Assembly: GCA_963855995.1 (NCBI GenBank)
Contig: OY979723.1
Coordinates: 13,902,713-13,966,712 of the forward strand
Reading direction: 5' to 3'
From: Muricea muricata
Taxonomy: Eukaryota; Cnidaria; Anthozoa; Malacalcyonacea; Plexauridae
DNA: 64,000 bases
Shown here: positions 1 through 62,853 of the stretch, one piece after another
Numbering within the stretch: the stretch's first letter is position 1
How the letters are laid out: each line of letters starts with the position of its first letter
Translations under genes and position numbers: made by a program
The notes under the pieces: generated by a model
Database searches by the model: none
Told to the model about the DNA's origin: nothing
The model's input: the letters and a program-made list of their open reading frames with translations, nothing else

Positions 1-1594
1 TGTATAATGGCCACATCCACAATAATTTAGGATCCTGCTGATTATTTGAATAAATTTAAATTTGAAACAGTCACATCCCACGCTCTCCTGTCGTAACAGC
101 GGAAGCTCTAATAAAGCATGACCAAAGTATGACTGTATGTATCAAGGGTTTTTGCAAGCAGTCTTCCTCACCTTGAATGATCATTATGGAAACCACAGTG
201 GCTGCGTAATATCAGAAATTCAAAGTGTAAATGTTCATATTAAATTTCATCATTATAAAGATTTAAGCAGAATACTTTACTGCATACAGCATACACGGAA
301 CGAGATAGACTGGACAACATCATCTGTGACGAAATTCCGTCAACATGAAAGCTATCAGTCATCTTTTACCCCAAACTGAAAAGTTCTTTTATTAGTTTTA
401 TACGATGCTTGTACTATTAATCAAAGCGGCATTACTGACCTATCCTACTGGTTTTGAGTTGCGGAAGCAAGATTTAATAGTCATATATGATATTAACACC
501 TAGAGGACAGTTTAGGAAATCAAGTGTATTTTTTGATGTTTGTTTAATAGAATTTCAGGGAATCCGTAGCTTCTAGTCTCAAAATCTCAAGTGTTTATCG
601 AGTGTGCTCTAATTCCTATTGAGTGGATCATCAACAAGCATCCACAAAACTAAATTTTGCCCTTTAACGCATTTATTTGTTACAAGCTTTGTCTCAGTGG
701 AGATACAAATTTGACTGGAGCCTTTGAACGCTAAACCATTGAGGATTTGTGTCAATATTAAATGGTACGACATAATTGTATCAGACTTTCAGCAGAAGAA
801 TTTTTCGACTTGCAGAATGTAATTTGCGCTAAGAAGTATGTATTACAAACATGGCCAAACCAAGACTCTTAAAACCATTGAGTTCTCATTTCCACATATC
901 ATTAATGAAAGAGTAATTCATGTCTACATATACTGTTCCGGTCATTAACCATTGATATAGATCTAGATATTTATTTCGTACGTGACTCTGACAAGACACC
1001 GTATGATCACGAATTATTCAAATAAAAACGAAAACCAGGCTTTACATCTTGTATGCGAGTTTATTTATGTGTTTGCAATACCATTGCATCCAAGCAGTAC
1101 AGAATCTTGGCATCAGACTTGTCCTCTCTAGAAAGAAGGAGCCAGCCATGCAGGCTGATGCTGGAGACATCCTAGAGCCACCAGCAAATTAAATACATAT
1201 ATAGAGCAGATTACACGACGGTGCGAAGATATGAATTGTATCTTCAAGTGGTGAAAACAAATACTTTACGAATGAGCGCGCGAATAAGTAAAATATTACT
1301 TTTACCACGAGAAGATATCTTGTGCTAACTTTAGGTTAAAAATTACCCACTGTTTTAATTTCTACTCATCTTTTAACATTTCTATAACTATTTCTTCTGT
1401 TTAATGGCGACCGTTATCGCTATATGTTAATTCAACCTACAACAATTCATCCGTCTTCTCTGTTCTGCGTAGTTTCTCATTATTTTTTTGTCTTGACAAC
1501 TGTTCGTAACGTTCATCCTTAAAGAAAGACGGTTTTATTAGTGGAGTAAATTTAGTCTTCGTCTTTTGGATTGATTAAATATAATCAATCTGAT
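1..1594. other. Intergenic part of receptor repeat unit 1
   Basis: No convincing gene. The first bases match 7,393 onward and 13,861 onward, which lie just upstream of exon 1 of the receptor copies. The window therefore opens in the 5' flank of another minus-strand copy located to the left. The rest is the 3' flank of the copy ending at 1,595. Around 365-383 it carries the uninterrupted form of a site that is filled by a hAT-like element in the two other units. The small plus-strand reading frame at 137 is repeated in the other units but shows no coding features. Confidence 0.7.
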
Positions 1595-2070
1595 TTATCC
1601 GTCTTTTTGGTTGTTTTCTTTCTTTTTTAGATCATTGATTAGAGATGTGTAGCCGTTATCTTCGCTTTCTTTGTCATGTGATAGCGACCTTGCAAGTGGA
1701 GTGTAATTATCTTCTTTTGGATTTATTAACTGATCTGATTTTCCTGTCTTCTGAGATGTGTTTCCTTTCTTTGTTAGATCATTGATTAGTGATGTGTAGG
1801 CGCTATCTTCACGTTCACTGTCTCTTTGTGGCAATCTTACAAGTGGGGTATAGTTGCCGCCCTCAACGCCAAAATCTTTTTTTCCCCTCTTGTTTTCTTC
1901 AGGATCTTTTGTGTTTGTTGATCTGGCTTGACCAACTAAGGGATATTCATAATGATGAGGGGTTGGCAAAGAAGGATATTCGTACGTGTGGGAAGAAGAT
2001 TCTGAAGTATTTGGTATGACATATACTGGTATGACATCTTCTTCTACGAGTGAAGTGTTTTGATCCGTTA
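1595..2070 (-). other. Tail exon of copy A with four YxxL motifs
   Basis: The last exon of copy A keeps an open frame from the acceptor at 2071 (TTTTACCAAG) to the TAA at 1595-1597. It holds one YVIP, the pairs YPSL and YPLV, and YTPL/YTSL twice, each of the latter with D, E or G-rich acidic context upstream. It is 57 nt shorter than the copy B exon because one YVIP repeat and nearby residues are missing. It is downstream of the frameshift in exon 5, so it is translated only if that shift is an error or is bypassed. Confidence 0.75.
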
Positions 2071-4748
2071 CTTGGTAAAAGAAGAATTTTTAGCATTAAA
2101 CAAAGACAACTGTGCACCCCTCTCCCAGAATATCCGTTATAGAACGTGTTATGTATGAATAAAATACCACGTGGATAATAAAGTATATCCTCCTGACATT
2201 TTGAAATGGACAACGAAGACGTTGATCAACTAGTATATCTAGTCGATGCTGTATTTTCCATTTCACAAGAATTATCACTGTAGTAAATCATACTTTCAAA
2301 TTTATTGTAAAAGCAATGTTAGCAATGTTTAAAATGTTACCAGCATGAATAACACGATTTCTACATGATTACCTGGAATATTGCCTTTTGTTTTGCGGCT
2401 TTTTGAACGTACAAGCCTATTTAAAATAGAAGAGAATTGGATCAAGAGTAATAAGCAACAAACCCATGTCTATACTCGCGCTAAAAATAAATCGATGCTG
2501 TATGTTTACAAAAGGATTTAAAGACAGTTGACACCATTGCCATCCTATGTGTGTGGTGTTCTGGATATATTAAGAATCTAATGTCAATGAAAATCAGGCA
2601 GTATTCTAGTATTTATTTATTTCTATACCTGCGTTTATAGACGACTGTTCCGATTACTGCAGCAATACAGAATAGAGCCACTGCACAAACGATAAAGATT
2701 ATAGTTTGCGTATTATTAATCTTGCCATCTTCACTTTTTTCTCTTTGTTTTTGCTTAAATCGCTTTTGACCTTTGTGGTTTTGATCTTATTATCATTACC
2801 GTCATGCGTATTACCATCGGTGGGATAAATACTGATCGGTGAGTCGTAAAATATTACATCAGTGGAACTGAAACCTATGTACAATAGAAAATAAACATTA
2901 TTTAACTACCTTGCAATTGCTAATTTTAATTAAGACGACAGAGTATGTTTTACAGACCTCGCTCAGATATGCCAAATATTCAGTGAAAAAGGTCGCAATA
3001 TAGTGGAGAAAAGAGTTTAGCTTTAAGTCTAGCAATTATACAAGTGCGCAGTCCCCCTATGTATGGTCCGTTTGGACTTGATTTTCTTGCGTAATTTACA
3101 TAAACAAAGAACTCAAATACATGACTGCAACATTGACTTTCATAAAATTTTTACTTATTACTGAGTCTATTTTAGGATCTTCTATTTAGACCGATTTCCG
3201 ACCGCAATGCATTTTGGTAAAATGTAAATCTGCCATATTTTTCGTTACGGTCAATAGGTCAGATCTAAAAAATCGAAAGCGAGTCACTATTCCGAGTCCT
3301 TTTCTTTTTTCAATATTCACTTTCTACTTAAAATATTTATATTCTTAATACTCCATACCATCAACGTTGTTGTCATCATCTTCATCAAACCGTATCGAAA
3401 CGTTTGTTCAAGACAAGGTTGGATTCAAAGTTTTGCGCAGTATTGTTTTACAGGTTACTTCTGATATAGGAGTTTTTATAGATGGTCCCTTACCTTTAAA
3501 TGTTCCAACATATTTTATCACGACACAATGTTCAGTTTCGCCATTTGTATCATAACATTTGAATTGTATCTTGACTAATAATCCTCCCCAGGTTTTAGGA
3601 GTTTCACTCAAGTTCCACTGTGAATAAAAAGCAACAGTTAAAAGATCAACTTTATTAGTAACAATTACATGGTGTATATTGGTTGCATAAATTACATGAA
3701 GCGTCTAGTAAGAGCGTTAAGTCAACTTCCAGTCAATTTCCTTAGTTTTTCCTTGAAATATAGTGTGAAATACCTTCAAAAATGGTTTGTCAACAGTTAT
3801 CTCAAAACTTCCATTCTTTACTTCCAATGCTCTCCATGTGTCATTATGTAAATATTTAGTTTTATATGGTAAAATACTGCATCCAGTTTTTGGTAAATCG
3901 ATTTCCTTCTCTCCTGAACATTCTGAGTGTTCTTCACATTTTGTTTTGTTAAGAATGATGAGCGAAGAACCATCTTCAAACATTTGACACCCCACAGCTA
4001 GGAGGAGAATGTATATTGCATAAACTTCCAAAGAAGATAGCACTAAAAAATAACTGCCGGCTTGCCAAGCTTATATATTGGACTGATAATCCAAGAATAT
4101 ATATATAATAATTGTTACTCAAGGCCTCTACACGAGTAGCCTAGGCCCAGGCCTCTGCCGTATACAATAGAGATCGTTCTAAGAAAGTGACATCAAAATG
4201 TGTTAAAATTTTTGTTTCTGATTCATTGCTGCTGCATTGTTTCTTTAAATTACCTTGTGAACAGACATCTTTCCCTGTATCATAACGCCTCCATTGTGCT
4301 AGGCCGGGCCACGTGATTCCCGTTGTCACATAGTTATGAAATTGTCCATATTTCAAATATCGGTAGGACATTGGCTGCCAAATGTATCTTTTCCTGTCAC
4401 CCACACATTTCCAACCCTGCTTCTGGTTATTTCTATCACATTTCTTCAGTATGACGTAATAGCGTCGACCGTCGTAGTAGTCATCAGTCATACACTCCAG
4501 GGTTTCCCAGTGTAAAATTTGTCCAAAGTTTGTCCACATCCAACTGAAATTACTTTCTTTTTCATCACATTTGTTCTTACTTAGCAGGACAAATTTGTTA
4601 TTACCAGTACTAGTCGCTTGATAAAGACAGTTTCCTGCAAGGTTGTGCTGCACGAGAAATGTCGCCTCGTAAGCTGTGAAACAATGAAACATAGACAGCT
4701 AGAGAACACATTTTAAGCTATCACATGATTTGTTTTGGTTTCATTAAC

Positions 4749-6703
4749 CTGAGCGTAGAGGATCCTCTGCTGGTTGAATCAAGACAAAAAATGTTGAATC
4801 CCGACTCTGCAATAATGGTCTGCACAGATTACTTTTGCTTTCAGTGTCCATGTCTTTGTGGGCGTATTATTTCACATTCTATTGTTGAGTTTAGTTCCTC
4901 TAATATACGATTTAAATTTGCTAATATTAATGTAAGCAATGTTGCAATGAATTTGAGTAGTTTAAAAGTTTCAAAGGCAACGGAAATGGATAATTTACCT
5001 GCTAAAATTCTCAAAATTTCATCGTACTTAATTGCGCCATCACTTACTGCCATTTTTAATATGTCTCTTAAATTTGGTATATATATATAGATGAATGGAA
5101 AATGGCTAGGGTAATCCCAATTTATAAATCCGAAAATCGAAGTAAATGTGAAAATTATCGACCAATATCTATCTTACCGATAATAAGTAAGGTATTCGAG
5201 AGAGAGGTCTTCAACCAAATATACAGATACCTTAATGAAAACTCCCTAATATCAAAATTCCAATCGGGATTTCGACCAAAATATGGAACGGTTAGCGCAC
5301 TGATTCAAATGTGCGATTAATGGTTGACTGATATGGATAACGGCAAACTAAATGGAGTTGTTTTTCTCGATATATGTAAAGCTTTTCATTCGATTAATCA
5401 CGAAATTCTATTGAGGAAGCTCAAAGATCAATTTGGGATCCATAGTAGTGAACTAAAATGGTTCGAGTCATATTTAACAAATAGGAAACAAGTGTGCTCT
5501 GTTAATGGTCAAACATCATCATCCAAAGAAATAGTGTGTGGAATTCCACAAGGCTCTATACTTGGCCCATTATTGTTTTTATTACACATAAATGATATTA
5601 CCGATTGCCTAGAAAAAACAACTCCATATCTGTATGCAGATGATACAGAAATCTCGTCTTCTTCGGACAATTTTGATACTTTGATTGAAAATTTAAATTA
5701 TGATTTAAACAACATCCTAAAAATAAGCTTAAACATCATCCGACAAAATCAAAGGTTATGTTCGTTGGGTCATCACGTAACTTAAATGAGAAAGTTAAAG
5801 ACAACTGTGTTCTATTAAATAATGCTCCAATTCCTCCAGCTGATACTTTTACATGTTTAGGGGTAGATTTGGACGAAAAATTGAGTTGGGAGAAACACAT
5901 TGAAAAAATATGTGGCAAGGTCAGTGCAGGAATTGGGGCGATGAGGCGTATAAAGCCCTTTGTCCCAACTGTCACCCTACAAATTATTTACAAAACATTG
6001 GTACAGCCGTATTTTGATTATTGTTCGCCTTTGTGGGATAATTGCGGCAAAGTACTCCAAGATAAATTACAAAAATCGTGCAGCTAGGATTATCACTGGA
6101 GCCAGCTACGATGTTAGATCTGCTGATGTGCTCGACACCCTTGGGTGGGAGACACTTGATGCAAGACGATCGCGAAATAAATTGATACTAATGTACAAAA
6201 TACTCAATGACCGCACTGCCCCAAATCTAAAAGATCTATTCCGAAAAAAATATGAAACCCATCGGAATACACTTAATCTTCGAAATAGCGGAACAGATTT
6301 AATGCTAGCAAAACCTAAAACTGAATTTCTAAAGAGAACTTTCGGGTACTGTGGTGCTACTTTGTGGAATAATCTTCCACAAGAGCTTAAACTAGCTGAA
6401 TCCGTTAGTTCATTTAAAAGGCAAATACAGCAAATATGATTCATGTTCTGTCGCTGGATTTAGGTCTCAGTTTTTAATGCTTTCCTTTCTCTTGTGTCTT
6501 TTTGCGTATTATTCATTCTCTGTATATATCTTGGTTTATTTTCTGTAAATAGTATCATCATTTGTAAATAGTATTAGGCTTATTTTATATAACATCTTGT
6601 ATTAGTGTGACGCCCCTCGTGGAAACCAGCTATATAGCTAGTTGACCGAGGCTAGCGTGGTTAAATAAAGTTTTTACATACATTACATTACATACATACA
6701 TGT
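4749..6703 (+). mobile_element. Truncated CR1/L2-like non-LTR retrotransposon in intron 1 of copy A
   Basis: The sequence is absent from the corresponding intron of copy B (13,153-13,500). It contains a reverse transcriptase relic and ends in AATAAAG followed by short TACAT/CATTA repeats, the kind of 3' end seen in the CR1/L2/Jockey group. The 5' part with the endonuclease is missing, which is typical of 5' truncation during target-primed integration. It lies antisense to the host gene. Exact edges are estimated from the comparison with copy B. Confidence 0.75.
4842..6439 (+). pseudogene. Reverse transcriptase of non-LTR retrotransposon, broken
   Basis: Recognisable RT blocks occur in order: ENYRPISILP, FQSGFR, an altered catalytic block FLDICKAFHSINH (usually with an Asp where His stands), GIPQGSILGPLLF, and YADD at the catalytic centre. 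The C-terminal part ends with the LWNNLP...FKRQ region typical of this group. The frame is broken by a stop at 5318-5320 and by shifts near 5,750 and 6,087, so no full protein can be made. Family placement (CR1/L2-like) is an inference from motif wording and the 3' end. Confidence 0.8.
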
Positions 6704-7307
6704 TATGGTATTCCAATATACTTTGTTGCGATGCAAAACACAATTATGATATCAAGCTTTGACGACAAAGCTTAATCTTATATCAGTGCTATTTATATAT
6801 TTTTTCATATACCAATTTAGATTTTGCTCATGAATTAAACACGCTTTGAGTGTGACTACAGCTGTGACCAACAACATCAGTAAGTCCTAGAAATGTATCA
6901 CAAACTTATTATAGCTCGTATCATGTAGAATGTGTCTTAGTTAATCTAATTCTTAAAATAATATGTCTGAGAATAATAGCATAGATCTTTTTAAAATTGG
7001 TTGCATACACATACTTAAACGGCCACTTACATGTTGCGTATATTATCAAATCGTTTGAGACACACTCGCCATATTGTCCTCTTGTTTGTATAAATGTCTC
7101 GCCAACAGCACACTGACAGTATGTACAGCTGCCATCGAAACAGTGAGCCTTCAAGATATGACATTCATACCGGTCCGATCCATGTAACATGTTTGTAACC
7201 CTGTCATTTTCTCCCCGAAATATAACCACATTCCCGCAGGTTTCCTCTGATATTAATGTCACCAGAGCGAAATAAAATGATGCCATTGGCAAGAATACAA
7301 CCTGCAT

Positions 7308-7392
7308 TTTGTATAGTTAGCTACGAACTAACTGATTTCTTTGATCATTTATAAGCGCATTTCACAGCTAACCTTTACTGCTTCCTGTAAGT
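7308..7392 (-). promoter_or_regulatory. Promoter of receptor copy A
   Basis: Reading the minus strand, TATAAA lies at 7348-7353, about 41 bases before the ATG, followed by an initiator-like TCAGTTAG. The same arrangement is conserved before copy B (TATAAA at 13,817-13,822). This supports transcription starting a few bases upstream of exon 1 and a very short 5' leader. Confidence 0.6.
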
Positions 7393-7770
7393 GTATAATG
7401 GCCCCATCCACAATCGTTTAGGATCCTGCTGATTGTTTGAATAAATTTAAATGTGAAACAGTCACATCCCACACTTTCCTGTCGTAACAGCGGATGCTCT
7501 AATAAAGCATGACCAAGGTATGACTATTTACAGTTATCAAGGGTTTTTCACACAGTCTTCCTCATCTTGAATGATCATTATGGAAACCACAGTAGCTACG
7601 TAATATCAGAAATTCAAAGTGTAAATGTTCATATTAAATTTCATCATTACAAAGATTTAAGCAGAATACTTTACTGCATACTGCATACACGGAACGAGAT
7701 AGACTTGACAACATCATCCGTGACGAAATTCCGTCAACATGAAAGCTATCAGTCAGCTTTTACCCAAAAC

Positions 7771-7925
7771 CAGTGGCGTAGCCAGCTTCGATAATTGGAG
7801 GAGCGAATATTCATATATTTGTGTTCACAGTCCTTAAAAACAATCGATTTCAAAAGAAATTAATGATGCAAAACATGATACATGAATATTCGCCCCTCCA
7901 ATTATCGACGCTGGCTACGCCACTG
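7771..7925. mobile_element. hAT-like MITE, 155 bp, unit 2
   Basis: The ends are inverted repeats beginning CAGTGGCGTAGCCAG and extend inward for more than 35 bp. The element is flanked by 8-bp direct repeats CCCAAAAC (7763-7770 and 7926-7933), the target-duplication length of hAT transposons. It has no coding capacity. The unit at the start of the window has no insertion at this position. Confidence 0.9.
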
Positions 7926-8935
7926 CCCAAAACTGAAAAGTTCTTTTATTAGTTTTACTCGATGCTTGTACTATTAATCAAAGCGGCATGACTGACCTAT
8001 CCTACTGGTTTTGAGTTGCGGAAGCAAGATTTAATAGTCATATATGATATTAACACCTAGAGGACAGTTTAGGAAGTCAAATTGTATTTTTTGACGTTTG
8101 TTTAATAGAATTTCAGGGAATTCCTATTGAGTGGATCATCAACACAAAACTAAATTTTGCCCTTTAACGCATTTCTTTGTTACAAGCTTTGTCTCAATGG
8201 AGATACAAATTTGACTGGAGTCTTTGAACGCTAAACCATTGAGGATTTGTGTCAATATTAAATGGTACGACATAATTGTATCAGACTTTCAGCAGAAGAA
8301 TTTTTCGACTTGCAGAATGTAATTCGCGCTAATAAGTATGTATTACAAACATGGCCAAACCAAGACTCTTAAAACCATTGAGTTCTTATTTCCACATATC
8401 ATTAATGAAAGAGTGATTCATGTCTACATATACTGTTCCGGTCATTAACCATTGATATAGATCTAGATATTTATTTCGTACGTGACTCTGACAAGACACC
8501 GCATCACGAATTATCAGTGCAGAATCTTGGCATCAGACTTGTCCTCTGTAGAAAGAAAGAGTCTGCCATGCAGGCTGATCCTGGAGACATCCTAGAGCCA
8601 CCAGCAAATTAAATACATATATAGAGCAGATTACACGACGGTGCGAAAATATGAATTGTATCTTCAAGTGGTAAAAACAAATACTTTACGAATGAGCGCC
8701 GCCAGTGAGTAAAATATTACTTTTACCACGAGAAGATATCTTGTGTTAACTTTAAGTTAAAAATTAACCCACTGTTAATTTCTACACATCTTTTAAGATT
8801 TCTATAACTATTTCTTCTGTTTAATGGCGACCGTTATCACTAACTGTTACATCAACCTAGAACAGTTCATTCGTCTTCTCTGTTCTGCCTAGTTTCTCAT
8901 TTTTTTTGTCTTGATCAACTGTTCGTAACGTTCAT

Positions 8936-9013
8936 CATTCAAGAAAGACGATCTTACAAGTAGAGTAAATTTAGTCCTCGTCTTTTGGATTGATTAAATA
9001 TAATCAATCTGAT
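8936..9013 (-). other. Decayed third tail repeat in the 3' UTR of copy B
   Basis: Just beyond the stop codon the minus strand still resembles the segment encoding SDQLINP-EDNYTPLAR, but with stops and a frame shift. The same relic follows the stop in copies A (about 1,500-1,594) and C (about 15,406-15,483). It suggests the tail once had a third YxxL-pair repeat. Confidence 0.5.
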
Positions 9014-13780
<4,767 letters not shown>

Positions 13781-13860
13781 TTTGTATAGTTACGAACTAA
13801 CTGATTTCTTTGATCATTTATAAGCGCATTTCACAGCTAACCTTTACTGCTTCCTGTAAG
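13781..13860 (-). promoter_or_regulatory. Promoter of receptor copy B
   Basis: TATAAA on the minus strand at 13817-13822, then TCAGTTAGTTCG, then the ATG at 13780. The block is nearly identical to that of copy A and sits at the same distance from the ATG. Confidence 0.6.
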
Positions 13861-15483
13861 TGTATAATGGCCCCATCCACAATCGTTTAGGATCCTGCTG
13901 ATTGTTTGAATAAATTTAAATGTGAAACAGTCACATCCCACACTTTCCTGTCGTAACAGCGGAAGCTCTAATAAAGCATGACCAAGGTATGACTATTTAC
14001 AGTTATCAAGGGTTTTTCACACAGTCTTCCTCATCTTGAATGATCATTATGGAAACCACAGTAGCTACGTAATATCAGAAATTCAAAGTGTAAATGTTCA
14101 TATTAAATTTCATCATTACAAAGATTTAAGCAGAATACTTTACTGCATACTGCATACACGGAACGAGATAGACTTGACAACATCATCCGTGACGAAATTC
14201 CGTCAACATGAAAGCTATCAGTCAGCTTTTACCCAAAACCAGTGGCGTAGCCAGCTTCGATGATTGGAGGAGCGAATATTCATATATTTGTGTTCACAGA
14301 CCTTAAAAACAATCGATTTCAAAAGAAATTAATGATGCAAAACATGATACATGAATATTCGCCCCTCCAATTATCGACGCTGGCTACGCCACTGCCCAAA
14401 ACTGAAAAGTTCTTTTATTAGTTTTACTCGATGCTTGTACTATTAATCAAAGCGGCATGACTGACCTATCCTACTGGTTTTGAGTTGCGGAAGCAAGATT
14501 TAATAGTCATATATGATATTAACACCTAGAGGACAGTTTAGGAAGTCAAATTGTATTTTTTGACGTTTGTTTAATAGAATTTCAGGGAATTCCTATTGAG
14601 TGGATCATCAACACAAAACTAAATTTTGCCCTTTAACGCATTTCTTTGTTACAAGCTTTGTCTCAATGGAGATACAAATTTGACTGGAGTCTTTGAACGC
14701 TAAACCATTGAGGATTTGTGTCAATATTAAACGGTACGACATAATTGTATCAGACTTTCAGCAGAAGAATTTTTCGACTTGCAGAATGTAATTCGCGCTA
14801 ATAAGTATGTATTACAAACATGGCCAAACCAAGACTCTTAAAACCATTGAGTTCTTATTTCCACATATCATTAATGAAAGAGTGATTCATGTCTACATAT
14901 ACTGTTCCGGTCATTAACCATTGATATAGATCTAGATATTTATTTCGTACGTGACTCTGACAAGACACCGCATCACGAATTATCAGTGCAGAATCTTGGC
15001 ATCAGACTTGTCCTCTGTAGAAAGAAAGAGCCTGCCATGCAGGCTGATCCTGGAGACATCCTAGAGCCACCAGCAAATTAAATACATATATAGAGCAGAT
15101 TACACGACGGTGCGAAAATATGAATTGTATCTTCAAGTGGTAAAAACAAATACTTTACGAATGAGCGCCGCGAGTGAGTAAAATATTACTTTTACTACGA
15201 GAAGATATCTTGTGTTAACTTTAAGTTAAAAATTAACCCACTGTTAATTTCTACACATCTTTTAAGATTTCTATAACTATTTCTTCTGTTTAATGGCGAC
15301 CGTTATCACTAACTGTTACATCAACCTAGAACAGTTCATTCGTCTTCTCTGTTCTGCCTAGTTTCTCATTTTTTTTTGTCTTGATCAACTGTTCGTAACG
15401 TTCATCATTCAAGAAAGACGATCTTACAAGTAGAGTAAATTTAGTCCTCGTCTTTTGGATTAATTAAATATAATCAATCTGAT
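13861..15483. other. Intergenic part of receptor repeat unit 3
   Basis: Almost identical to 7,393-9,013, including its own copy of the hAT-like element. It joins the 5' flank of copy B to the 3' flank of copy C. No gene is seen. Confidence 0.7.
14240..14394. mobile_element. hAT-like MITE, 155 bp, unit 3
   Basis: Same element, same position and same CCCAAAAC duplications (14232-14239 and 14395-14402) as at 7,771-7,925. The insertion must predate the duplication that made units 2 and 3. Confidence 0.9.
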
Positions 15484-16148
15484 TTATCCGTCTTCTTGAT
15501 TGTTTTCTTTCCTTTTTTGAACGTCGATTAGAGATGTGTAGCCGTTATCTTCTCTTTCTTTGTCATGTGATAGCGACCTTGCAAGTGGAGTGTAATTATC
15601 TTCTTCTGGATTTATTAACTGATCTGATTTTCCTGTCTCCTGAGATGTGTTTCCTTTCTTTGTTTGATCATTGATTAGAGATGTGTAGGCGCTATCTTCA
15701 TGTTCACTGTCTCTTTGTGGCAATCTTACGAGTGGGGTATAGTTGTCGTCCTCAACGCCAAAACCTGTTTTCCCCCTCTTGTTTTCTTCAGGATCTTTTC
15801 TTGCATTTGTTGATCTGGCTTGACCAACTGAGGGATACTCATAATGATGAGGGGTTGGCAAAGAAGGATATTCGTACGTGTGGGATTGGTGAGGATTGTT
15901 TTCAGGACCAGTGTGGACATGCTGGTGTGGATTATTTAATCTTGAAGGTTCTGAAGTATTTGGTATGACATAAGGTTCTGAAGTATTTGGTATCACATAA
16001 GTTTCTGGGTTATTTGGTCTTAAAGGGACTGAAATATTTGGTGTGATACAAGGTTCTGCTTCTCTCTCCGTCAGTTCCAAATTGGCGCCAGCGGCGTTAG
16101 AGGATTCATCCTGCTCTTCTTCCACGAGTGAAGTATTTTGATACGTTA
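15484..16148 (-). pseudogene. Receptor copy C, tail exon only
   Basis: An open tail exon from the acceptor at 16149 to the stop at 15484. It is longer than in copies A and B, with added residues around ELTEREAEPCITPN and a HQHVHTGPENN insert. It has two YVIP repeats, a related CITPNIS repeat, YPSL and YPSV, and the four acidic YxxL motifs. About 50 bases beyond the acceptor the sequence jumps to the 5' flank of the repeat unit (around 16,198), so exons 1-6 are deleted. It can be expressed only if spliced to something else. Confidence 0.8.
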
Positions 16149-22914: not shown

Positions 22915-23890
22915 TTAACTAAATAATTGCAACTCTTCGCTTGCTTTAAGGCAGGGGTGGATTTAGGGGAGGAATGGACAGGGGTGCAAGGGGGGTGCAA
23001 AAATTAGTACCACTATAATTGCAGTAAACGTCCATCATTATAAGTATTCAACATTGAAAAGAGAAATTAAAAGACGTTTAAACACCAATAAAAAACACTG
23101 GAATAAGGCTACTCTTCGAGAGCTGTCATTAAACAAAACTTTAAACTTGCATTATTTTATATTGAAAATAAACATTTGTCGCCATTTCAACTTTTCAAAA
23201 ATGTACCGGACTGGCCAGACTTACATGAAAATGAGTAAATGACACAAGATGCTTAGCTCATAAAATATGGTATAATTTCAAAGGTTTTTCCTTTTTTCCA
23301 AGTCAAACTGGAAGTGGTATTTTCGGGGTTATAATTTTCAAAATTTGCCCTAGGGGGCTTGCACCTTGGCTGTTCGACTCACCGGCACCCCCTTCAAAAA
23401 ACGCTACTGCATGATCCACCCCTGCTTTAAGGCCATTATTTAGGGCACATTCACGTCGCTTGATGTGAAGTGCTTCTTTATATAGCAATAAGTTCCAGTT
23501 ATTAGCCGAATCAATTATTTTTGTGTTATTTACAACAAGATCAACTAGTTTTTTGTTAGTTTTTTTGTTCAGATCTTCAGGATCGTAGCAGGATTGTAAA
23601 TGCTTGTTTACAGCACTGTCGTTGTCTTTGTACGTATGCTCTTTGGTTCGTTCTAATAATGTTAGTTCAGTTTTACCTATGTAGCTTTTGCTACATTTCT
23701 GGCAAGTGAACTCATATACGACATTACATTTGTTTTCTTTTGAAGTTTTGTCTTTCACGTTGGTAAACATGTTAAGTTTTGTGGTTGTAGTTCTTGTTAC
23801 AATTCGTACGTTTGAGATGGTAAGATAACGTTTTAGTTTCTTTGTAAGAGCACGCAAGGGCTGTTCTCCTTTATGCCCAATATAAGGCAT
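22915..23890 (-). pseudogene. Penelope-like GIY-YIG endonuclease fragment, left arm 1
   Basis: The minus strand encodes the C-terminal endonuclease part of a Penelope-like element (VVYEF, SYIGKT, CQKC) from 23890 to 23425. It is then broken by the hAT-like insertion at 22952-23424, after which the last residues and stop (22915-22917) follow. The reverse transcriptase part is absent. Confidence 0.8.
22952..23424. mobile_element. hAT-like MITE in the left Penelope arm, copy 1
   Basis: Ends CAGGGGTGGAT and ATCCACCCCTG are inverted. Flanking 8-bp duplications CTTTAAGG lie at 22944-22951 and 23425-23432. The right arm (near 24,470) and the fragment near 30,685 show the uninterrupted site. Confidence 0.9.
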
Positions 23891-23924
23891 CTCGAACCAA
23901 AGTGTTGGAGTAGTTGATGAGACG

Positions 23925-24506
23925 ATGACACGTTTCAGACAATATCACGAGACTAAGAATGACACTGAAGAAATAACCGAGAACAATACAACTACTCCAA
24001 CACTTTGGTTCGAGATGCCTTATCGTTCGAAACGAGAACAGCTCTTACGTGGTCTTACAAAGAAACTAAAACGTTATCTTACCATCTCAAACGTACGAAT
24101 TGTAACAAGAACTACAACCACAAAACTTAACATGTTTACTAACGTGAAAGACAAAACTTCAAAAGAAAACAAATGTAATGTCGTATATGAGTTCACTTGC
24201 CAGAAATGTAGCAAAAGCTACATAGGTAAAACTGAACGAACATTATTAGAACGAGCCAAAGAGCATGCGTACAAAGACAACGACAGTGCTGTAAACAAGC
24301 ATTTACAAACCTGCTACGATCCTGAAGATCTAAACAAAAAAACAAACGAAGAGCTAGTTGATCTTGTTGTAAATAACACAAAAATAATTGATTCAGCTAA
24401 TAACTGGAACTTATTGCTATATAAAGAAGCACTTCACATAAAGCGACGTGAATGTGCCCTAAATAAAGGCCTTAAAGCAAGCAAAGAATGGCAATTATTT
24501 AGTTAA
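23925..24506 (+). CDS. Penelope-like GIY-YIG endonuclease domain, partial (193 aa)
   Basis: Open frame of 193 residues. Residues 86-91 (NVVYEF) and 98-103 (SYIGKT) are the GIY and YIG blocks. CQKC at 92-95 with H126 and C130 fit the Cys/His signature of Penelope-like endonucleases, and R110/E113/H114 follow in the ERAKEH helix. In a full element this domain nicks target DNA for priming. Here the upstream reverse transcriptase is missing and the ATG is only the first available Met, so the frame is a fragment, not a functional gene. Confidence 0.75.
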   Translation: MTRFRQYHETKNDTEEITENNTTTPTLWFEMPYRSKREQLLRGLTKKLKRYLTISNVRIVTRTTTTKLNMFTNVKDKTSKENKCNVVYEFTCQKCSKSYIGKTERTLLERAKEHAYKDNDSAVNKHLQTCYDPEDLNKKTNEELVDLVVNNTKIIDSANNWNLLLYKEALHIKRRECALNKGLKASKEWQLFS

Positions 24507-24535
24507 TTTAGTTCAAAAGGAACAAAAGAACATTA

Positions 24536-24865
24536 GGATAGATTGTTAATTGTTACCTACGCCATACTCTTCATGAAAATACGTCGACAGAATTCAGCAG
24601 TATGTTGGACTTGGACAAGGATACGTTCATTTGCTTTTCTATGTCACATGACATTAGTGATTCAAGGTCCGCATTCTGATTTGCCACCCGCCTGTCCTGT
24701 TGTCAAGAAAACCATAAATAGTCCAGGTGTACCGATGTTTGGACCAGTGCTTTGACGAGGAAAGGACCGCTTTGATCACAGCGTATTAGTGCAGGAATAT
24801 TTTGCTGCTGACACAAAGGAGATGTAAGCCGTTCAACGGTTCATCAAGTAGTGACATCAGAAGAT
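24536..24865. other. Insertion in the right Penelope arm
   Basis: This piece has no counterpart in the left arm. It contains no convincing coding frame. A copy lies at about 27,653-27,982 in the direct duplication. Confidence 0.45.
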
Positions 24866-25063
24866 CTGAAGATGATCTCTCGGAAACGAACAGCAATCTT
24901 TTGGAGCCATTTTCATGACCTCGCACAAGTATCCCATCCAGACCTAGACGTCACGGTAAATAACATATATCCCATAACTAATAAAATTCCTTGTATAAGG
25001 CTTGGTGGCTTTACCAAGAGTTATATGTGGGCTCGTTTATGGAAAAGAGTTTTAACACAATAT

Positions 25064-25112
25064 TGACCCTGGATGGGGGACCTAAGTGGGTTTCCGGGTT
25101 CAATTCCTGGAG
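25064..25112 (+). ncRNA. T-arm/B-box-like module 8
   Basis: GACCCTGGATGGGGGACC is followed by a T-arm with GGTTCAATTCC at 25097-25107. The second hairpin is reduced. A copy with B box at 28214-28224 follows in the direct duplication, and a degenerate minus-strand one (GGATTGAACC) lies near 29,624. Confidence 0.45.
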
Positions 25113-25119
25113 TAATATA

Positions 25120-25968
25120 GATGTACAATAACCGATATACACTAATTTTACACTACATGGAGCTTTTACCTATATCTAGTATGTTAGTAATCTTAACCAC
25201 AACGTAGGTATGTTAGCATAAGGTGGCTACTGGTACTATAATATGCATGTCATATAGAGTAACTGTAATAACTAGACAACAGTGAGAACTATAAAGCTAA
25301 GAAATACTAGCTAGTTATATTTCTGAAAGTCAACGTTGAAGGTGGTTAAAAATGCAAGTACAACAACACCTATGCTATTTTGAGCATCTTGGGTCACTTT
25401 TAAAAAGTTGTAACAATGGACAAATGTATAACTAGACATAAAATGTGGAAAACACATCTCAAACATAGGAGTCTATTGTAAGTGGAATAATAGTTCTAAG
25501 AGGTGGGCTTTTAGTCGCTTGAGGTTATTAATTTTAGTCCTTGTTTATAGTTTTATTCTACATTTGTACACCATAGTTTATACATAAAGTTTAAACTTCA
25601 AGCTAAAAAATAATTGCCAAGTCTTGGCAACTGAATGGTGTTAGTGGTTTGCTGGTGTAAATGGTTTTCACACTTGCCTACCAACACAGCACCCCCCATA
25701 AAAATACTTTGCTGGATCCGCCTAGGGATATAGCCTGGGGGGTAAGGCAACCACAGTTCCGCCTTTTGTTGATAGAAGGTTCAGCAAAGATGCAATATCA
25801 AAGACGACATAAGAATGGCTTTAGAAATGTCGTGGGAGCCTGCATAGATGGTTATTCCCAGCCATTTTACCTCGTCATTGACACCAATATGGCTAACTGG
25901 TACGGCAATACCCAATTCCCATTTCATGCCAATCATAACTCCTTGCAAATCAAAATCCTCCCTCCATA
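25120..25968. other. Gene-free stretch
   Basis: AT-rich sequence ending with CCTCCCTCC. The frame at 25,661-25,999 runs across the duplication junction and differs from the copy downstream, so it is not supported. A second version of the stretch lies at 28,235-29,025. Confidence 0.5.
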
Positions 25969-26000
25969 TCCTGATGTTCTTTTGTTCCTTTTAAACTAGA

Positions 26001-27007
26001 TTAACTAAATAATTGCAACTCTTCGCTTGCTTTAAGGCAGGGGTGGATTTAGGGGAGGGGTGGACAGGGGTGCGCACCCCTGTTGGCCTTGGTCAACAGG
26101 GGTGCAAGGGGGGTGCAAAAATTAGTATTACTATAATTGCAGTAAACGTCCATCATTATAAGTATTCAACATTGAAAAGAGAAATTAAAAGACGGTTAAA
26201 CACCAATAAAAAACACTCGAATAAGGCTACTCTTCGAGAGCTGTCATTAAACAAAACTTTAAACTTGCATTATTTTATATTGAAAATAAACATTTGTCGC
26301 CATTTCAACTTTTCAAAAATGTACGAATGGCCAGACTTACATGAAAATGAGTAAATGACACAAGATGCTTAGCTCATAAAATATGGTATAATTTCAAAGA
26401 TTTTTCCTTTTTTCCAAGTCAAACTGGAAGTGGTATTTTCGGGGTTATAATTTTCAAAATTTGCCCTAGGGGGCTTGCACCTTGGCTGTTCGACTCACCG
26501 GCACCCCCTTCAAAAAACGCTACTGCATGATCCACCCCTGCTTTAAGGCCATTATTTAGGGCACATTCACGTCGCTTGATGTGAAGTGCTTCTTTATATA
26601 GCAATAAGTTCCAGTTATTAGCTGAATCAATTATTTTTGTGCTATTTACAACAAGATCAACTAGTTCTTTGTTAGTTTTTTTTGTTCAGATCTTCAGGAT
26701 CGTAGCAGGATTGTAAGTGTTTGTTTACAGCACTGTCGTTGTCTTTGTACGTATGCTCTTTGGTTCGTTCTAATAATGTTAGTTCAGTTTTACCTATGTA
26801 GCTTTTGCTACATTTCTGGCAAGTGAACTCATATACGACATTACATTTGTTTTCTTTTGAAGTTTTGTCTTTCACGTTGGTAAACATGTTAAGTTTTGTG
26901 GTTGTAGTTCTTGTTACAATTCGTACGTTTGAGATGGTAAGATAACGTTTTAGTTTCTTTGTAAGAGCACGCAAGGGCTCTTCTCCTTTATGCCCAATAT
27001 AAGGCAT
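26001..27007 (-). pseudogene. Penelope-like GIY-YIG fragment, left arm 2
   Basis: Second copy of the left-arm fragment, again split by the hAT-like element (26,038-26,540). It also carries an extra T in a T-tract near 26,675 that shifts the frame after DLNKK. Confidence 0.8.
26038..26540. mobile_element. hAT-like MITE in the left Penelope arm, copy 2
   Basis: Same ends and same CTTTAAGG duplications (26030-26037 and 26541-26548) as the first copy, with about 30 extra bases around CACCCCTGTTGGCC. It was copied with the 3.1-kb block rather than inserted anew. Confidence 0.9.
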
Positions 27008-27041
27008 CTCGAACCAAAGTGTTGGAGTAGTTGATGAGACG

Positions 27042-27623
27042 ATGACACGTTTCAGACAATATCACGAGACTAAGAATGACACTGAAGAAATAACCGAGAA
27101 CAATACAACTACTCCAACACTTTGGTTCGAGATGCCTTATCGTTCGAAACGAGAACAGCTCTTACGTGGTCTTACAAAGAAACTAAAACGTTATCTTACC
27201 ATCTCAAACGTACGAATTGTAACAAGAACTACAACCACAAAACTTAACATGTTTACTAACGTGAAAGACAAAACTTCAAAAGAAAACAAATGTAATGTCG
27301 TATATGAGTTCACTTGCCAGAAATGTAGCAAAAGCTACATAGGTAAAACTGAACGAACATTATTAGAACGAGCCAAAGAGCATGCGTACAAAGACAACGA
27401 CAGTGCTGTAAACAAGCATTTACAAACCTGCTACGATCCTGAAGATCTGAACAAAAAAACAAACGAAGAGCTAGTTGATCTTGTTCTAAATAACACAAAA
27501 ATAATTGATTCAGCTAATAACTGGAACTTATTGCTATATAAAGAAGCACTTCACATAAAGCGACGTGAATGTGCCCTAAATAAAGGCCTTAAAGCAAGCA
27601 AAGAATGGCAATTATTTAGTTAA
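27042..27623 (+). CDS. Penelope-like GIY-YIG endonuclease domain, partial, copy 2 (193 aa)
   Basis: Same 193-residue frame as at 23,925 with one visible substitution (LVLNN for LVVNN). The GIY-YIG blocks and Cys/His residues are intact. It is a fragment lacking the reverse transcriptase and arose by the direct duplication. Confidence 0.75.
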   Translation: MTRFRQYHETKNDTEEITENNTTTPTLWFEMPYRSKREQLLRGLTKKLKRYLTISNVRIVTRTTTTKLNMFTNVKDKTSKENKCNVVYEFTCQKCSKSYIGKTERTLLERAKEHAYKDNDSAVNKHLQTCYDPEDLNKKTNEELVDLVLNNTKIIDSANNWNLLLYKEALHIKRRECALNKGLKASKEWQLFS

Positions 27624-36135: not shown

Positions 36136-37344
36136 CTATAATTTCACGGGCCAATAATTTTCGTCGTTAATTAACACACCTCCACGGACACGCTGATGGT
36201 CTTCGTTGCGCGATGTGTTGTACATTTCGATGATAACATATCCTTCGGGAATCTTTCGGACAGCTGGTGCTCCCCAGGTGTATTTATACCACACGTCGTT
36301 TGGGACATCCGACCAGGTGACGGTTTGCACAGGCTTCTTCCTTGAAGAGGTGGTTTTGGTTGTTGTGCTGCGTTTGCCTACAGGTTTGGTTTCCATACGT
36401 GTAGGCTTAGTACTGTTTACACCGAAGTGATAAGCATAGCATTCCCCAAATAGGTCTGCAAGAGTTTGATTATCGGGTGGTGTGCCGGGCTTGTTATCCA
36501 CCAACAAGTATCCATACGGTTTTTCGGTCTCTTTGTAATAAGCATTCATAAAGTGCACTCTATTCTTGTCAAACATGCGTTCTGCAATAATTCCGATTTG
36601 TTTTCGATCGCTAGGACTTCGGAAGAGAGCCAAGTACTGGACATTTCGGCAGATATCTGTATTATATTTCCCCTTAGGAAACATGTTTTGCAGCAATAAA
36701 ATAACGCTGGCGTTTCGATGGCGGCCTTGTGTAAACAGTCGAGATACCACAGGACTGTCTGTCGCTTCAGCCATCAAATCGTCTAGGATGATGATGTTAT
36801 TGTACCGGGCATTGATTTCACACAGATCTTCAGACTGTTCGGGCACACCTCTTTCAAACAGGATGCTTTTACCGAGAGACTTTTTCAATTTTTCATAACA
36901 TTCTTGCCATTGATTGTAGTACCAAAAAATGTGAATACTCTTTTGCTCTTCATACACGATACGCTTGTTTTCCAAAATTTGTTGGACAAAATACGTTTTC
37001 CCACTTTGTGTGGCACCCACAACCAAAAGTGGGAATTTATGGCGGAAGTTGAATTCCGGACATGGTTTGGTTAGCATGGATGCCGTTACTTTCCGCGCGG
37101 CTTTTGTTGGCTGTCGTACAGAACAAGTTTTCTTGCGAACACATCTCATTTCTTCTACTGTATGTGTCGGGCATCCAGGTAGTGAACCAGAGCAGTGTTT
37201 ATGTGAAATTGAGAACCTGGCCCTTCCTAGCCACTTTTTCCTTTCATCACCGTATAAATGGTGTACTTGACGTAAATAATCACTCATATACAGAAGACCT
37301 GGCTTGTCACAGACAGGACAGTCTCTTTTGTGCTTATAGGGCAT
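36136..37344 (-). CDS. A32/FtsK-like DNA-packaging ATPase of E2, intact (402 aa)
   Basis: P-loop ATPase of the FtsK/HerA-A32 type, which in Polintons and large DNA viruses drives genome packaging into capsids. Walker A is GATQSGKT at 110-117, Walker B IIILDDL at 184-190, followed by TQGRHRNASVILLLQN (205-220), which holds the usual conserved Arg and the sensor Gln region. The N-terminus is a Cys/His-rich, zinc-binding-like segment (C9, C12, H28, H29, C51, C58, H61). A basic Ser/Thr-rich linker (about 315-335) leads to a conserved C-terminal module ending in NDENYWPVKL. At 402 residues it is longer than the bare ATPase domain because of these two extensions. The ATG at 37,342-37,344 is shared by the other copies. 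It is transcribed divergently from the acidic-protein gene. No capsid, protease, polymerase or integrase gene is nearby, so any function would be in trans. Confidence 0.88.
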   Translation of the reverse strand: MPYKHKRDCPVCDKPGLLYMSDYLRQVHHLYGDERKKWLGRARFSISHKHCSGSLPGCPTHTVEEMRCVRKKTCSVRQPTKAARKVTASMLTKPCPEFNFRHKFPLLVVGATQSGKTYFVQQILENKRIVYEEQKSIHIFWYYNQWQECYEKLKKSLGKSILFERGVPEQSEDLCEINARYNNIIILDDLMAEATDSPVVSRLFTQGRHRNASVILLLQNMFPKGKYNTDICRNVQYLALFRSPSDRKQIGIIAERMFDKNRVHFMNAYYKETEKPYGYLLVDNKPGTPPDNQTLADLFGECYAYHFGVNSTKPTRMETKPVGKRSTTTKTTSSRKKPVQTVTWSDVPNDVWYKYTWGAPAVRKIPEGYVIIEMYNTSRNEDHQRVRGGVLINDENYWPVKL

Positions 37345-37519
37345 CTTGACAGGTGGAATGTTTAATCATAAATGACCAAGAATGAAGTGTTTGGAAACAT
37401 TAATATTTTTCTGATGAGGATTGATGCGAGGTCAATGTAGGGTCGATGTGAGGTCGTTTGTGCATAAATAACGTGTATAACTGAAAATTTGTTTATTTTG
37501 CATTGACATTCGTAAGACA

Positions 37520-62350: not shown

Positions 62351-62496
62351 ACATAGTCTGCGTTTCAGCTGTGCAGTTTCGTCATCGCTTTAGAAGGGAT
62401 TGGATTTGGATTTTGTCAGTCTTCAACGGAAATTTTCTTAAGAGCGCTAAGAGAGATCTCTGGTGCTGGTGCTTGCATCGCTGGTGCTTGTGACTA

Positions 62497-62853
62497 ATGA
62501 AAAAACAAAAACTTTTATTGAATACATTCATAATTATCATATTTTTTATTCATTTTTGTGATGGACAGCAGGCTATTAACGCAGCCATGTTTGAAATAGA
62601 GCAAGGAGACCAAAAGTCGTACATGTTGAAAGATTGTCGCAAGATGGCTGCTGATGATATAAATTGTAAATGTGTGAATCTAGACAGAGAATGTCAGCAG
62701 GCTGATGTTGAGAATTGCACAAACTGTTCATGTTTAAATAGTTCAGCAAGAATATTTTATATCAAGAAAAGATACAGTCCGCTGTGCTCGAGTCCAAATA
62801 ATCTCTTTAATGCTAGTAGATATTGTATATATAGAACGTATTACTATATATAA
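62497..62853 (+). CDS. Small secreted Cys-rich protein or first exon of one (118 aa)
   Basis: Starts with a clear signal peptide (KKQKLLLNTFIIIIFFIHFCDG). The remainder has ten or more Cys, including CKC and a CTNCSC core followed by a Phe and a later Cys. The order (acidic F-x-x-E/G-D then ML, then CxxCxC, F, C, L) resembles exon 1 of the receptor copies at 7,031-7,307 and 13,501-13,780. This could therefore be a related module on the opposite strand. It may be complete (stop at 62,851) or spliced before the stop; GTATAT lies near the end. A short initiator-like TCAGTC lies about 75 bases upstream. Confidence 0.55.
   Translation: MKKQKLLLNTFIIIIFFIHFCDGQQAINAAMFEIEQGDQKSYMLKDCRKMAADDINCKCVNLDRECQQADVENCTNCSCLNSSARIFYIKKRYSPLCSSPNNLFNASRYCIYRTYYYI

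Follow-up and report, generated by a model that had tools for sequence, protein, structure and literature searches.

Paired receptors of vertebrates, such as CEACAM1 and CEACAM3 or Siglec-11 and Siglec-16, are described as having similar ligand-binding regions joined to different tails, one of which is activating or resembles the immunoreceptor tyrosine-based activation motif (ITAM) (PMC5112662, PMC5701461), and gene conversion is reported to keep their binding regions alike (PMC5112662). Their ectodomains belong to the immunoglobulin superfamily (IgSF), and CEACAM1 has the corresponding inhibitory and switch motifs (ITIM/ITSM). Here we describe a locus of the octocoral Muricea muricata in a 64,000-nucleotide stretch (contig OY979723.1 of assembly GCA_963855995.1, forward-strand positions 13,902,713 to 13,966,712), called the window below, which, judging by sequence, is rather likely to be part of an octocoral tandem cluster of type I receptors working like a paired-receptor system.

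The mannose receptor family (MRC1, MRC2) begins with a cysteine-rich R-type (ricin-like) domain, followed by fibronectin II and C-type lectin domains, and its tail is short and endocytic. Among cnidarians the Hydractinia Alr receptors form a cluster with ITAM/ITIM-type tails, and ITAM/ITIM and hemITAM motifs are reported on candidate allorecognition genes of both Hydractinia and Botryllus (PMC12065747); the Alr ectodomains are described as Ig-like and their role in allorecognition as known (PMC11999971). Another invertebrate receptor with an ITAM is the oyster CgIgIT2, which has five Ig domains (PMC11999971). Draper, MEGF10 and CED-1 are described as single-pass receptors with an ITAM or YxxL and NPxY on one protein (PMC8092387, PMC9388098); Draper and MEGF10 recruit a Syk-family kinase and CED-6/GULP (PMC8092387), while CED-1 works via NPXY and YXXL, the latter binding NCK-1 (PMC9388098). 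ITAMs may also stand in series, as in the T-cell receptor (TCR) complex with ten ITAMs, six of them from the separate signalling subunit CD3 zeta, and the gap between the two cassettes of an ITAM is defined as 6-8 residues (PMC4428620).

The window contains a single full intact copy of the receptor gene, copy B (Table 1), copy A being frameshifted, copy C a tail exon and copy D a remnant. An earlier note on this DNA had placed here one intact copy encoding a seven-exon type I membrane protein (9014-13780), and this is confirmed: all six introns are GT-AG, and the seven exons sum to 1845 nucleotides in a single frame for 614 residues, with a signal-peptide-like N-terminus (judged by eye), one transmembrane (TM)-like stretch at 398-420 and a tail of 194 residues. 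The length of 629 residues given in that note is not retained: it takes an upstream exon 3 AG, which adds 15 hydrophobic residues and is used by none of five aligned homologues (P0001-P0005), all of which join exon 3 at the downstream AG. The tyrosines previously numbered Tyr545/563/594/612 are Tyr530/548/579/597 in the 614-residue model.

All five relatives with species names are octocoral, namely P0001, P0002 and P0005 of Paramuricea clavata and P0004 and P0008 of Dendronephthya gigantea, in a protein search that reached relatives sharing short words only. P0001 matches copy B at 47% over 97% and, as a predicted protein, unites the ectodomain and the ITAM-like tail in one chain. Exon 2 matched the Pfam family Ricin_B_lectin with E 0.006, below the curated cut-off, as did all single-sequence ricin-like matches in the scanned proteins (P0003 has a precomputed PF00652 tag), and a search of the PDB with the copy B ectodomain alone gave one unrelated match (E 1.8). 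The family profile, built from eight members (P0001-P0008, window proteins excluded), matched the mannose-receptor cysteine-rich domain 1dqg over residues 5-133 of 135 (E 3.6e-7), and also plant R-type lectin chains (E 8e-4) and MRC2 (E 1.3e-3), so that the ricin-like, mannose-receptor-type ectodomain suggested before is upheld at the level of the family. The flanking domains D1 and D3 matched no Pfam family above the cut-off, and no Ig, EMI, EGF, fibronectin II or C-type lectin domain was found in the Pfam scans of family proteins.

The tail of copy B contains four [DE]xxYxx[LI] motifs in two pairs, with a tyrosine-to-tyrosine spacing of 18 in each; in 100,000 shuffles of the tail four acidic YxxL motifs were reached in 2, and two pairs at the spacing of copy B in 2. 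P0001 has four motifs at matching places (spacings 18 and 17), and the D. gigantea protein P0008 one pair (spacing 18). A search with five tails as query returned 16 proteins, including P0008 and window copy C (P0009). In the set of 18 tail proteins (copy B, P0001 and P0008-P0023) the pair pattern, which permitted gaps of 8 to 16, found 39 pairs in 17 proteins (none in the short P0019) with gaps of 12 to 14 only, the spacing being 16 in seven, 17 in five and 18 in 27. After the first pair of P0021, which is spurious, and the two pairs of copy C were dropped, and with modules that had lost a tyrosine, such as the middle one of P0012, excluded from the count, there were 36 pairs in 16 proteins, from one to five in each (five in P0011). 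An acidic residue stood at Tyr-3 in 44 of the 72 tyrosines and within Tyr-5 to Tyr-1 in 67, counts which are not independent because several proteins are near-copies. Across proteins, first modules were 43% alike, last modules 46%, and first with last 35%, while modules of one protein were 47% alike (36 modules), which points both to an ancient identity of the module positions and to modules having been duplicated or homogenized within proteins.

The immune-type tyrosine tail with four motifs in two repeats that had been read from the window thus stands, since paired YxxL cassettes are kept in other octocoral proteins. The remark that its 14-residue gap is longer than that of the classical ITAM holds for copy B and has to be widened to 12-14 for the family, and with 6-8 as the definition (PMC4428620) the name ITAM in the strict sense is given up for "ITAM-like".

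When the genome was searched (453 Mb, 74 contigs), at least 36 matches to P0001 were found, 34 of them, without exception on the minus strand, at C8:13,880,606-13,918,798 and the other two on C3, together with at least 37 matches to P0004 (34 on C8 and three on C3). Eight exon-mapped units follow on one C8 strand in the transcription order C, B, A, G3, G4, G5, G6, G7, in agreement with the tandem family proposed earlier, and two further divergent, partial units lie left of the cluster (C8:13.861-13.870 Mb). Counted over these mapped C8 units, the tail is ITAM-like in C, B, A and G6, the last with one pair of spacing 17, while G3, G4, G5 and G7 have a tail of a second class (class II) unrelated in sequence to the first. 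G3 is open over seven exons and splices to 561 residues with a class II tail. In an alignment of nine class II tails, two of which (G4 and P0005) are cut short, NP[LI]Y was found in seven (not in G3 and P0002), C-x-LYE in all nine, and a C-terminal YxxL in the seven that reach the end. On C3 (45.015-45.026 Mb, L014 and L015; 37.5415 Mb, L013) the R-type exon, D3 and a class II-like tail have distant relatives too, and the tail there reads LNPIY ... LEYDYAK ... VYQTLEEE.

The likeness to paired receptors is carried by matched ectodomains on the two tail classes. Copy A (ITAM-like) adjoins G3 (class II), and their ectodomains are 91% identical (92% of amino acids in exon 2), copy B being 84% identical to G3. 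The synonymous divergence (dS) of A and G3 in exons 1-4 is 0.09, 0.15, 0.02 and 0.00, values which are rough because of few synonymous changes per exon (0 to 22); identity is 94-96% in introns 2-4 (for intron 4 across the 102 bases present in G3) and about 50% in introns 5-6, and the DNA match stops about 30 bases into exon 5 of G3. The first 20 bases of this exon persist as a relic within intron 4, unaltered in copy B and with a single change in copy A. G6 (ITAM-like) and G7 (class II) have 77% identical ectodomains and nearly the same TM helix with a different tail exon; their junction is another one than that of A and G3, since their sequences diverge just ahead of the tail exon. The Paramuricea proteins P0001 (ITAM-like) and P0002 (class II) likewise have sister ectodomains, with 73% identity; adjoining genes whose ectodomains are much alike while their tails differ are claimed for A/G3 and G6/G7 only. 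The relic of copy B is still preceded by AG (11141-11162), which is lost in copy A; if this site were spliced, the protein would end after about 15 residues as a soluble ectodomain.

On a tree of 12 ectodomains (P0005 without its N-terminal part, exon 2 of G6 and G7 possibly lacking its start) the sister groups obtained support of 86/89 (A+G3), 100/99 (G6/G7) and 99/98 (P0001/P0002). Four changes of tail class are needed, at least three of them forced by starred branches, and tail class is not clustered on the tree, since shuffled labels need 3.5 changes on average. The four ITAM-tailed ectodomains as one clade were rejected with p-AU 7.5e-6, in a test whose groups were set by tail class and not from the tree, and a test of A, B and P0001 alone as a clade, named after the tree, gave p-AU 6.7e-12. 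According to this conflict between tree and tail class and to the abrupt ends of homology, recombination or conversion appears to keep the ectodomains matched, tail exchange and ectodomain conversion not being told apart. The ratio of nonsynonymous to synonymous divergence (dN/dS) was 0.32-0.79 in exon 1, 0.26-0.42 in exon 2, and 0.46 and 0.55 in exon 3, with 2.5 for exon 3 of A/G3 on 10 nonsynonymous versus 1 synonymous change; exon 4 of A/G3 had no synonymous change. Between A and B exon 2 (4673-4254 and 13152-12736) is the most diverged of exons 1-4 (dS 0.34, 78% of amino acids identical; dS 0.13 in both exon 1 and exon 3), which fits a different history of this exon via exchange with G3.

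A possible reader of the ITAM-like tail is encoded in the same genome as an SH2-SH2-kinase of 572 residues in a single frame (C5:5,284,742-5,286,460; L018:2742-4460), whose best PDB matches are SYK (4fl3, E 3.8e-138) and then ZAP-70. Since it lacks introns, although encoded in the genome of an animal, it is possibly a retrocopy. The inspection of the 59 SH2 matches in the genome covered two stretches, this one and L019, which has open reading frames (ORFs) with single SH2 domains. Syk/Zap70 homologues, CARD-CC and Bcl10 are described to co-occur in invertebrates, with cnidarians among the Bcl10 holders, and ITAM-containing upstream receptors are inferred there to be anciently conserved (PMC5978004). 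The coral receptor probably signals through Syk.

The receptor encoded by copy B, and likewise by G3, consists of D1, the mannose-receptor-type R-type domain, D3, a stalk, one TM stretch and a tyrosine-rich tail, the last being within the family either one to five ITAM-like pairs or the unrelated combination of NP[LI]Y, LYE and C-terminal YxxL. In the proposed system the receptor would be clustered by a ligand, probably a glycan or glycoprotein borne by microbes, by symbionts or by cells nearby, Src-type kinases would phosphorylate the paired tyrosines, and Syk would then dock and trigger a cell response, for which phagocytosis, degranulation and gene induction are candidates. Its class II partner would bind the same ligand and lead it by another route (adaptor or phosphotyrosine-binding (PTB) domain binding, endocytosis or damping), and the balance of ITAM-like and class II receptors would set the response. 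The three same-species gene pairs with sister ectodomains, which part at two different junctions in this genome, suggest that cassette exchange or conversion may keep the partners matched during divergence between species.

Several observations weigh against such a system. The strict ITIM, [SIVL]xYxx[LIV], was rejected for the class II partner, as it was present in none of the nine tails, and the gap between the ITAM-like cassettes, which as such are two YxxL/I sequences in the tail, is 12-14 residues and not 6-8. Thus opposite signalling is not claimed, the family is said to work like paired receptors and not to belong to them, and it is filed as a member of neither the ITAM nor the paired receptors. 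The A+G3 fork is not starred, the residues at split codons of the tree sequences were set by hand, and the per-exon dN/dS, with its small counts, gives no clear sign of diversifying selection. G4 has an internal stop within the match of its tail to P0004, and G4-G7 were read exon by exon and are not proven gene models. Because of the frameshift in copy A and the fragmentary state of copy C, the A/G3 pair may have one working partner in this haplotype; if A is not working, copy B is the nearest intact ITAM-tailed gene to G3. The AlphaFold models are also of low confidence (pLDDT 36 for P0001 and 42 for exon 2).

It is possible, if on balance unlikely, that the family represents phagocytic receptors of the Draper/MEGF10/CED-1 kind for microbes, debris or algal symbionts, where the ITAM-like tail would lead to Syk and NPxY to a PTB adaptor, both for uptake. 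The NP[LI]Y motif of seven class II tails, the lectin-type second domain (by homology) and the presence of both signals on Draper and MEGF10 speak for this, as does the report that endosymbiotic cells of Xenia express genes implicated in taking up and recognizing algae by phagocytosis, one with lectin domains (PMC7332420). On the other hand, the motifs of Draper are on one protein, while those of the coral are distributed over different genes whose ectodomains match, which is the pattern of paired receptors, and neither EMI nor EGF was present in the Pfam scans. The YxxL pairs may also be serial docking or sorting sites for NCK-type adaptors or AP-2, with class II as another trafficking tail. 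YTPL, YEYP and YVIP could suit several SH2 or sorting readers, the gap of 12-14 exceeds 6-8, and the YXXL of CED-1 is a known NCK-1 site; such an explanation is nevertheless improbable, since it does not lead one to expect strict pairing, near-constant spacing over one to five modules and acids before 67 of 72 tyrosines, and a tandem-SH2 kinase is present in the genome.

Less probable still are allorecognition receptors like the Hydractinia Alr or Botryllus fuhc families, and the likeness to allorecognition clusters drawn in the earlier note is not supported here. Tandem, species-specific clustering, ITAM-type tails such as those on candidate genes of these animals, and exon 2 as the most diverged of exons 1-4 between A and B agree with this possibility, and it is opposed by the absence of Ig matches in the Pfam scans and by the dN/dS of the same exon (0.26-0.42). 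Very improbable is a cluster decaying without function in this species, despite the frameshift of A, fragment C, remnant D, the decayed third modules, the insertions and the stop in the G4 tail, since B and G3 are each open across seven exons and the motifs are kept in other octocoral proteins. The reading as a cluster working like paired receptors is the one preferred here.

By domain content the coral family is not a member of the Alr, Draper or mannose-receptor families. It differs from Alr, whose V-set/I-set Ig-like ectodomain has no counterpart in our Pfam scans (sequence only), and from CgIgIT2 with its Ig domains, by having an R-type domain, and from Draper, MEGF10 and CED-1, with their EMI/EGF ectodomains, by the separation of the motifs. 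Its second domain can be aligned along almost the entire CysR domain of MRC1/MRC2 but is not N-terminal, and the fibronectin II and C-type lectin domains are absent. ITAM-like pairs in series recall CD3 zeta, though here they are on the receptor itself, one to five in number and with the longer gap. By analogy, the family works most like the CEACAM-type paired receptors, with an R-type domain in place of IgSF and a partner without the strict ITIM; this likeness is presumed to be by convergence, no sequence homology having been seen. No receptor of such design was described in the open-access literature, as far as the listed titles and abstract starts go and with one query too broad to weigh, which agrees with the earlier note, to which no described invertebrate receptor with this combination was known.

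Table 1. Features of the receptor locus, in window positions
Feature	Position	Strand	Remark
Copy B exon 1: signal peptide and Cys-rich domain D1	13780-13501	-	homologous to P0001-P0004
Copy B exon 2: mannose-receptor-type cysteine-rich (R-type, ricin-like) domain	13152-12736	-	family profile, weak Pfam
Copy B exon 3: D3, first part	11766-11543	-	no Pfam family above cut-off
Copy B exon 4: D3, second part	11380-11263	-	
Class II exon 5 start relic, copy B intron 4	11141-11160	-	bases as in G3 exon 5 after acceptor
Copy B exon 5: stalk and TM helix	10614-10386	-	
Copy B exon 6: juxtamembrane	10180-10137	-	
Copy B exon 7: tail, YVIP/YEYP motifs and two ITAM-like pairs	9546-9014	-	
Copy B ITAM-like pair 1, Y530-L551	9206-9271	-	matching pairs in P0001, P0008, others
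Copy B ITAM-like pair 2, Y579-L600	9059-9124	-	
Decayed third ITAM-like module 3' of copy B stop	8870-9013 (approximate)	-	by eye
Copy A, seven exons	7307-7031, 4673-4254, 3997-3774, 3617-3494, 2874-2629, 2416-2373, 2070-1595	-	exon 5 frameshift
Reverse-transcriptase-like insert, copy A intron 1	5072-6439	+	ORFs, judged by eye only
Decayed third ITAM-like module 3' of copy A stop	1413-1550	-	tblastn with P0011, E 9.9e-15
Copy C (P0009): tail exon only, two ITAM-like pairs, longest YVIP segment	16148-15484	-	
Decayed third module 3' of copy C stop	15302-15463	-	tblastn with P0011, E 9.3e-6
Copy D: decayed 3'-end remnant of a further unit	17206-17019	-	P0011 match, E 5.5e-4

Copy A retains all seven exons and splice sites, and its frame is shifted before the TM helix by an A-run in exon 5 one base shorter than that of copy B. 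The coding part of exon 7 has 157 residues in A, 176 in B and 220 in C, a difference residing mainly in the membrane-proximal YVIP part, which bears out, together with the mapped cluster, the tandem copies with length-variable tails proposed before. The ITAM-like array has also shrunk, as follows from the decayed further modules past the stops of A, B and C and in D; that of copy B is out of frame and interrupted (...FTLLVRSSFLNDERYEQLIK...) and resembles module 5 of P0011 by eye. Short imperfect inverted repeats (76-78%), similar to miniature inverted-repeat transposable elements, flank two units at 7771-7925 and 14240-14394.

Elsewhere in the window an ORF at 62494-62853 has a signal-peptide-like start and, by eye, a D1-like CxxCxC pattern, with no Pfam match; it is not claimed as a D1 relative (BLASTP E 0.29, composition correction off). 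The region 30800-55500 contains several tandem units, each about 4 kb long and including a satellite array whose period is roughly 126 bp, and looks by eye like an amplified Maverick/polinton-like element; the unit has an ORF matching a Pox_A32/FtsK-like packaging ATPase (36139-37365, PF04665, E 3.8e-7) and a small acidic ORF. An ORF that has a YIGKTE-type motif is repeated at 23303-27623 in direct and inverted orientation (91-99%); by eye it is GIY-YIG-like, and perhaps it is Penelope-like.

In summary, the family provides concrete candidates for ITAM-type receptors in a cnidarian whose genome also encodes a Syk-type kinase, and its ladder of one to five modules amounts to an experiment of nature on the number of ITAMs. 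That matched ectodomains occur on different tails suggests that the evolution of paired receptors need not be confined to vertebrates or to the Ig fold. More tentatively, with slightly less than even confidence, octocorals may have a paired-receptor system outside IgSF, in which an R-type-lectin ectodomain has moved between an activating tail, an expandable ITAM-like ladder read by Syk, and a tail of a new kind, and the logic of natural killer (NK)-type receptors may thus have arisen, or pre-existed, near the base of the animals.

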